Of a stretch of DNA of 64,000 nucleotides, positions 48,348 to 48,677 are shown piece by piece. The stretch spans positions 2,790,001-2,854,000 of the forward strand of contig NZ_CP081958.1 of the NCBI RefSeq assembly GCF_019823105.1. The letters run 5' to 3'. The stretch's first letter is position 1. Each line of letters opens with the position of its first letter. A program made the position numbers and the translations under genes. This stretch comes from Halobaculum magnesiiphilum. GTDB lineage: Archaea > Halobacteriota > Halobacteria > Halobacteriales > Haloferacaceae. The notes beneath the pieces are model-generated. The model was not told where the DNA came from. It saw only the letters and a program-made list of their open reading frames with translations, and ran no database searches.

Positions 48348-48418
48348 GCACTGGTAGTGTAGTGGTATCACGTGACCTTGCCATGGTCACAACCTGGGTT
48401 CAAATCCCAGCCAGTGCA
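48348..48418 (+). tRNA. tRNA-Gly (anticodon GCC)
   Basis: A 71-nt intronless tRNA. Acceptor arms GCACTGG (48348-48354) and CCAGTGC (48411-48417) pair fully, with discriminator A at 48418. The anticodon stem TGACC/GGTCA holds the loop TTGCCAT with anticodon GCC. The T arm is CTGGG-TTCAAAT-CCCAG. CCA is not encoded. The last 22 nt plus 5 nt downstream recur exactly 140 bp further on. Confidence 0.95.
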
Positions 48419-48423
48419 GTTCT
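48397..48423 (+). repeat. 27-bp direct repeat, copy 1 (3' end of tRNA-Gly)
   Basis: GGTTCAAATC...AGTTCT covers the T arm, the 3' acceptor strand and five downstream bases. It is identical to 48537-48563. A tRNA 3' end duplicated as a direct repeat is the classical mark of tyrosine-recombinase integration. Confidence 0.85.
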
Positions 48424-48435
48424 CCGCCGGCGACC

Positions 48436-48464
48436 GAACTCGCGAGGCGACGCCTCGCGAGTTC
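48436..48464. terminator. Perfect 13-bp hairpin after tRNA-Gly
   Basis: GAACTCGCGAGGC (48436-48448) and its exact complement (48452-48464) are separated by GAC. A further five pairs (GCCGG 48426-48430 with CCGGC 48467-48471) can extend the stem. It may terminate or process the tRNA transcript, or be part of a mobile palindromic element. Confidence 0.6.
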
Positions 48465-48484
48465 CGCCGGCTGTGTCTCTCCTC

Positions 48485-48493
48485 GCTGGGATT
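48485..48493 (-). repeat. Inverted partial copy of the tRNA-Gly T arm
   Basis: GCTGGGATT is the reverse complement of AATCCCAGC, found in both 27-bp repeat copies; the flanking GTGAATC also resembles the inverted T arm. It lies between the direct repeats, so fragments of the tRNA occur in both orientations. Confidence 0.45.
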
Positions 48494-48536
48494 GTGAATC
48501 AGGGAGTGGAGCGAACGGAGTGAGCGGAACGACCGT

Positions 48537-48563
48537 GGTTCAAATCCCAGCCAGTGCAGTTCT
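48537..48563 (+). repeat. 27-bp direct repeat, copy 2
   Basis: An exact copy of 48397-48423. There is no tRNA 5' half before it, so it is not a functional tRNA. It is followed by a second, weaker hairpin (GCGAGAC 48582-48588, GTCTCGC 48592-48598), mirroring the arrangement after copy 1. Confidence 0.85.
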
Positions 48564-48677
48564 GTCGCGACCACCCGACGAGCGAGACGCAGTCTCGCGA
48601 GTCGCTTACGATCGCGTGCCACGCGATCGCCCGCGGGGCCAACGCTTATTCCACCCCCGGCGCATCCCCGAGTACCG

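Follow-up and report, generated by a model that had tools for sequence, protein, structure and literature searches.

A tRNA-tethered hairpin repeat behind tRNA-Gly(GCC) of Halobaculum magnesiiphilum and its counterparts behind other tRNA genes of Halobacteria

The unit behind tRNA-Gly(GCC)

The window, i.e., the whole stretch of 64,000 nucleotides of the Halobaculum magnesiiphilum genome that was analysed (contig NZ_CP081958.1, positions 2,790,001 to 2,854,000), contains an intact tRNA-Gly(GCC) gene that is followed by a unit of 140 bp (Table 1). As an earlier note on this DNA had stated, the last 22 nt of the tRNA together with GTTCT recur exactly 140 bp downstream: GGTTCAAATCCCAGCCAGTGCAGTTCT is present in two identical copies, which enclose an interval of 113 bp in which, again in agreement with that note, no convincing gene was found. 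The other structures it described are also present: a hairpin after each copy, the first (GAACTCGCGAGGCG-A-CGCCTCGCGAGTTC) with a perfect stem and the second (GCGAGAC-GCA-GTCTCGC) with a stem of 7 bp, and between the copies an inverted fragment of the T-arm, CTGGGATTGTGAA. Since a hairpin follows both copies, the likeness of the repeats extends to 74 nt at 77%. Hairpin 1 is also found in the sister genome G007, and at the tRNA-Gly site of G008 it occurs alone. In a comparison with Rfam 15 only tRNA matches reached the gathering score and none fell outside the tRNA, so that the unit matches no family.

Table 1. Features at the tRNA-Gly(GCC) locus (positions in the window).
Feature	Position	Strand	Remarks
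tRNA-Gly(GCC), intact	48348..48418	+	ARAGORN; Rfam RF00005, 66 bits
27-nt repeat, first copy	48397..48423	+	tRNA nt 52-73 plus GTTCT
140-bp unit	48419..48558	+	trailer with hairpin, then inverted arm, core and tail copy
Hairpin 1 of the unit	48436..48464	+	variable part of the trailer
Inverted arm CTGGGATTGTGAA	48486..48498	+	complementary to tRNA-Gly nt 54-65, one extra base
Type A structured core TCAGGGAG..GAACGACCGT	48499..48536	+	GGA triloop
27-nt repeat, second copy	48537..48563	+	its nt 54-65 pair with the inverted arm
Hairpin 2	48576..48604	+	the trailer found directly 3' of the tRNA in G002, where the site is empty

Recurrence, anatomy and conservation of the unit

The interval is not a one-off. 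A search of the same genome with the 341-bp region returned matches at tRNA-Asp, tRNA-Val and tRNA-Ser loci, where in each case the tRNA's own tail is repeated, preceded by its own T-arm in inverted orientation and a similar core. A repeat of at least 18 of the last 22 nt within 400 bp was found for 17 of the 48 tRNAs of this genome, compared to 0.5% of 1616 mismatched pairs of tRNA and flank, which excludes a chance origin of the repeat. When the inverted arm is also required, 16 of the 48 tRNAs, with 18 complete units, are retained; a further match beyond these, C1:177037, looks spurious, and the unit at C1:980956 is decayed.

The palindrome GATTTGAA-N(25-55)-TTCAAATC occurs in at least 45 of 60 relatives (zero matches in the controls) and, in a phylum-wide sample, in at least 44 of 53 Halobacteria genomes and in 2 of 242 other genomes, with one match apiece; all these counts are lower bounds, as the search patterns demand the TTCAAATC T-loop. 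Among the haloarchaeal matches listed from a public genome collection, nearly all lie behind a tRNA, most of them 32-400 bp downstream, and the tail of the resident tRNA is mostly matched at 18-22 of 22 positions (a few at only 13-17). These matches derive from Halorubrum, Natrinema, Haloarcula, Halobacterium, Natronorubrum, Halorientalis and other genera. The isotypes with units include Asp, Gly, Val, Lys, Arg, Leu, Met, Thr, Glu, Ala and Ser, and recurrent core types sit behind unrelated isotypes in many genera. The feature behind tRNA-Gly(GCC) belongs to a family of tRNA-tethered hairpin repeats that spans the Halobacteria, and we consider the existence of this family and its structure near certain. 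A literature search, with most subscription journals outside its reach, found no description of such a unit; we do not claim priority.

For one core type the apex motif GACGCGCGCAGCGNNNNGAGCACGTC was traced in 11 genomes of the genus. All 18 module-type matches lie 51-179 bp downstream of a tRNA, in sense orientation at the loci checked, and the remaining matches checked (L405, L407) are weak and look like coding sequence. Since every module-type match adjoins a tRNA, ordinary dispersed repeats are excluded for this core type, and an identity with REP or MITE elements was rejected on the same ground.

Several unusual settings were encountered. Four tandem units with identical cores and a period of 86-87 bp stand behind one tRNA at L125 (G024:C2:1034800-1036000). 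On the megaplasmid CP031304 of Natrinema thermotolerans (L008, 2850-3250) a complete unit stands behind a truncated tRNA that resembles tRNA-Glu and of which just the 3' portion, beginning at the anticodon loop, is present; it looks as though the unit had been taken off the chromosome by a mobile element. In Natronorubrum bangense decaying hairpin units stand behind each of two tRNA-Gly(GCC) genes (L007, 7816-8960) on NZ_CP031306, an 827-kb replicon that is filed as a plasmid and carries the ribosomal protein operon. Near-perfect palindromes derived from a tRNA-like anticodon/T half (GATTTGAACC..CCTCTGGCA..GGTTCAAATC) were found in Bifidobacterium (L270, L273); these are probably unrelated to the units and may represent a prophage att site.

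A unit consists, in this order, of a T-rich trailer with a variable hairpin, the inverted arm, a structured core and the direct copy of the tRNA tail, which starts at nt 52-54, continues through nt 73 and ends in a T-rich tail. The insert of ~80-190 bp is geneless. The inverted arm complements nt 54-65 of the resident tRNA, i.e., the T-loop and the 3' strand of the T-stem, with pairing at 87-100% for nt 54-63, 63-71% for nt 64-66 and at background level beyond. Recurring cores include (C/G/T)CAGGGA..GACCGTGG, GTAGA..GCGTGG and CCCTG..CTCCGG.

The fold of the unit is supported by covariation. In 15 type B units double changes occur at 7 of 21 pairs, compared to 2.5 in shuffled data (none of 500 shuffles was as high), and the signal is abolished when partners are slid; the short type A units, with 10 double-change cells, behave like type B. 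After correction by shuffling, the sense RNA folds better in 70 units and the antisense in 21 (p=3.5e-8), the outer arms contain 39 G.T against 12 A.C pairs, T.T, G.G and A/GA mismatches recur at fixed positions, and a GNA triloop is present on the sense strand of 109 of 158 units and on the antisense strand of 7. These biases in fold, G.T pairs, mismatches and triloops indicate that it is the tRNA-sense strand that folds, be it as RNA or as single-stranded DNA, even if they are partially confounded by kinship among the units and by a purine bias in this strand. GNA and pyrimidine triloops are more typical of DNA hairpins than of RNA hairpins, a point against action of the units as RNA. The foot before the hairpin reads GTAG in 19 of the 158 units, TCAG (31) and GCAG (20) being commoner.

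At the 11 sites in common with G007, inverted arm and core are 95.2% and the copy 96.4% identical, compared to 73.7% for the preceding trailer and 75.6% for the downstream DNA. Alignments of the orthologous Tyr, Gly(CCC), Leu and Arg sites reveal the same pattern with compensatory changes; at the Arg site the core has been replaced between conserved arms. For 11 of the 18 units the best match is the orthologous site of a sister. The structure of the tRNA-sense strand thus appears to be kept by selection. It could also be imagined that fork stalling or template switching at T-arms generates tandem duplications of tRNA ends with inverted pieces, which are subsequently homogenised by recombination. 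The decayed copies known from N. bangense (L007) and G003 fit such neutral debris, and some core swaps can be explained by contraction of arrays; identical core types behind unrelated tRNAs in many genera, the covariation in types A and B, and the conservation of the module between diverged flanks strongly disfavour it, and we consider this explanation improbable.

Presence and absence of units and exchange of cores at tRNA genes

The earlier note had made much depend on whether the same interval follows tRNA-Gly in most haloarchaea. The unit is indeed widespread, but at tRNA-Gly both its presence and its core vary: in the relatives the 3' flank holds an exact empty site, other cores, and a decayed unit or none. 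In G002 the tRNA is directly followed by the trailer that in H. magnesiiphilum comes after the second copy, with exactly 140 bp absent. In G007 hairpin 1 and the copy are kept around a type B core, G005 has a type B core, G003 a decayed one of type A, and five other relatives lack the unit. Between tRNA-Gly and a CBS-domain gene, five sisters (L115, L118, L120, L123, L124) have unrelated DNA of ~0.8-2.4 kb with no unit, and at least three of these intervals appear to have small genes in common.

The type A core of the source locus shares 36 of 38 positions with cores that follow another tRNA in G005, G006 and G007. In G007 this is a tRNA of intron length that is orthologous to C1:1789388, and in G005 and G006 its identity was judged by the tail in common, CCCGTCGCGCCCG. 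Since so similar a core sits behind another tRNA, cores evidently move between tRNAs, with arms that match the recipient. G007 has units at a tRNA-Val and a tRNA-Leu site that are exactly empty in the source genome, as well as additional tRNA-proximal units and arrays in a different order. Three different cores are found behind one tRNA-Asp (L244) and two behind the tRNA at L278; some core swaps fit a deletion between adjacent units. Judged from match coordinates, the unit at a polymorphic tRNA-Leu site is present in G002, G006, G007, G008 and G010 and absent from G000, G001, G003, G004, G005 and G009. Units that are present in one genome and absent from another have exact boundary repeats of 27-29 bp, and gain and loss are indistinguishable because a deletion between direct repeats restores the exact empty site.

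The repeats at tRNA-Gly had been proposed to be attL and attR of a tyrosine integrase, or the scar of one. att sites are usually recognised by a direct repeat of the tRNA 3' end (PMC8371274), and the exact empty site in G002, which differs by one repeat, agrees with such a site. However, the 113 bp hold no gene, at least 16 tRNAs have such a unit with arms matched to each, and the cores are not tied to one tRNA. A genuine integrase element is available for comparison in G007 (L409, C1:1499800-1505300), where 3.4 kb located between tRNA-Gly(CCC) and its resident hairpin unit replace the anticodon-arm half of the tRNA and encode a tyrosine recombinase of 436 aa, also matched by PF00589. The att repeat of this element begins within the anticodon arm, takes in the whole T-arm and has no inverted arm and core before it; the succession of inverted arm, core and T-copy seen in the units is absent from this att site. 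This element does contain a 10-nt inverted T-arm ~60 nt after the tRNA, which speaks for the att reading; as the other integrase-adjacent tRNAs examined have none, this piece may have been captured from a unit, and the idea that integrase att sites generally contain an inverted T-arm was rejected. At L371 (G007:C1:807259-808743) an integrase gene (G007:C1:808194-808640) lies ~650 bp behind tRNA-Leu(TAG), with no inverted T-arm. Apart from L409, a scan of the tRNA loci with a strict tyrosine-recombinase motif, which missed at least one integrase, detected none beside them. A viral origin was rejected, as no archaeal-type unit was seen among the 85 IMG/VR matches examined, an observation that also weighs against att repeats. 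Given the units behind many tRNAs and the real integrase element for comparison, the integrase scar was rejected, and a remnant or minimal integrated element at tRNA-Gly seems very improbable. The two other guesses of the earlier note, a minimal palindromic element or a duplicated terminator module, pointed in the right direction but missed the recurrence of the unit.

Possible function and likeness to known systems

Two functional readings are alive in our view: a role in tRNA 3'-end formation, or a selfish cassette of single-stranded DNA. We tentatively prefer the first, at somewhat less than even probability: the unit, a tRNA-tethered, strand-specific hairpin repeat, would be kept by selection, be turned over by recombination and act in 3'-end formation of read-through pre-tRNA. 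Recombination between repeats of 27-29 bp would let units expand, contract and reshuffle, and the near-universal T-loop octamer (GATTTGAA/TTCAAATC) would serve for the swapping of cores. In RNA running past the tRNA, the structure of the sense strand would present a strong hairpin and then a second tRNA-like 3' end with a second T-rich stop, so that the unit may act as a fallback, specific to its tRNA, for 3'-end formation or termination. This function at the RNA level is the least certain step, held with at most moderate confidence.

Hairpins and T-stretches terminate transcription in Haloferax (PMC7237163). As expected of a terminator, the tract at the end of the unit is T-rich: 3.9 T per 12 nt follow the copies, just as 3.9 follow true tRNA ends, compared to a background of 1.75. 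The T-tracts of tRNAs without a unit, predicted to be richer if units serve as backup terminators, are no richer than those of unit-bearing tRNAs (p=0.90), and on this point the idea is unsupported. The unit may in fact never be transcribed, and the patchy distribution of units, over approximately one third of the tRNAs and differing between sisters, sits oddly with a terminator that is needed. Nor would a terminator need the acceptor strand to be copied exactly; this exactness could instead stem from recombinational homogenisation. When pre-tRNA plus unit was folded with RNAfold, the 5' strand of the tRNA paired with the copy in five of five cases, which may be an artefact of multiloop energy terms favouring branching.

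Less likely, in our judgement, is that the units are selfish, non-autonomous DNA cassettes whose folded single-stranded hairpin is recognised by a trans-acting enzyme that inserts it at tRNA 3' ends; by analogy with integron attC sites and REP/RAYT systems, the compensatory changes would then reflect selection for mobility and not for a host function. The arrays in which one tRNA is followed by different cores (L244, L278), the additional tRNA-proximal units of G007, the polymorphic presence with exact duplication of 27-29 bp, the type A core common to different tRNAs and the restriction of mismatches and triloops to the sense strand all fit such cassettes. However, the apex type that was traced never occurs away from tRNAs in the genus, the arrays have no linked candidate enzyme in the strict tyrosine-recombinase motif scan, and a mobile cassette would have to rebuild its arms at every jump, as these match the resident tRNA. 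The predominance of best matches at orthologous sites in sisters also argues against them, and deletion between direct repeats would yield exact empty sites equally well. Somewhat less probable still is a new class of tRNA-parasitic hairpin cassettes whose folded strands, of DNA or RNA, would rebuild their arms from the host T-arm and form integron-like arrays. Such cassettes may offer the tRNA a second 3' end that can be switched to, with an acceptor strand able to compete for the 5' strand of the tRNA.

Few genomic landing sites are as well studied as tRNA 3' ends, and a duplicated tail is routinely taken as a mark of integration. Because the units produce an att-like signature without a detected integrase, att-based calls of genomic islands in haloarchaea can mislead. 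This poses questions on what maintains a tRNA-specific, strand-specific hairpin with a second tail behind many tRNA genes, and on how cores are transferred between tRNAs while the arms still fit the new host.

The units share features with several known systems. In the cassette arrays of integrons, units end in imperfect hairpins (attC) that combine conserved outer arms and a variable tip with asymmetrically placed unpaired bases. The arraying of different units at one site (L244, L278), the imperfect hairpins and the strand-specific unpaired bases are alike, whereas the present units lack cassette genes, have no integrase motif beside the arrays (strict motif) and derive their arms from the resident tRNA. 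In a comparison by eye, the R box consensus of attC (GTTRRRY/RYYYAAC) is unmatched by the unit arms GATTTGAA..TTCAAATC. With the att repeats of tRNA-integrating elements that use archaeal tyrosine recombinases (PMC8371274), the units have in common the exact duplication of a tRNA 3' end flanking an insert and an empty site that differs by exactly one repeat; they differ in being geneless and only ~80-190 bp long, in possessing an inverted arm and a core, in the occurrence of their cores behind many tRNAs and in the lack of a detected linked integrase. REP elements with their RAYT transposases (PMC3733652, PMC2817692) are likewise short palindromes with stem mismatches; of their GTAG or CGTC tags at the hairpin foot, GTAG opens the type B units, with TCAG and GCAG being the commoner feet among the 158 units. 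REPs are scattered between genes, whereas the units occur only behind tRNAs, with tRNA-matched arms. Haloferax terminators (PMC7237163) also combine hairpins with T-rich stops in haloarchaeal 3' regions, one hairpin terminating 59% of transcripts, but in the parts of that report consulted they are not described as copying tRNA ends or forming tRNA-linked arrays. Finally, the PATE, SMR and MITE elements of Haloquadratum (PMC3119063) are short, geneless, palindromic and haloarchaeal as well; these are dispersed and have conserved ends, whereas the ends of the present units vary with the resident tRNA.
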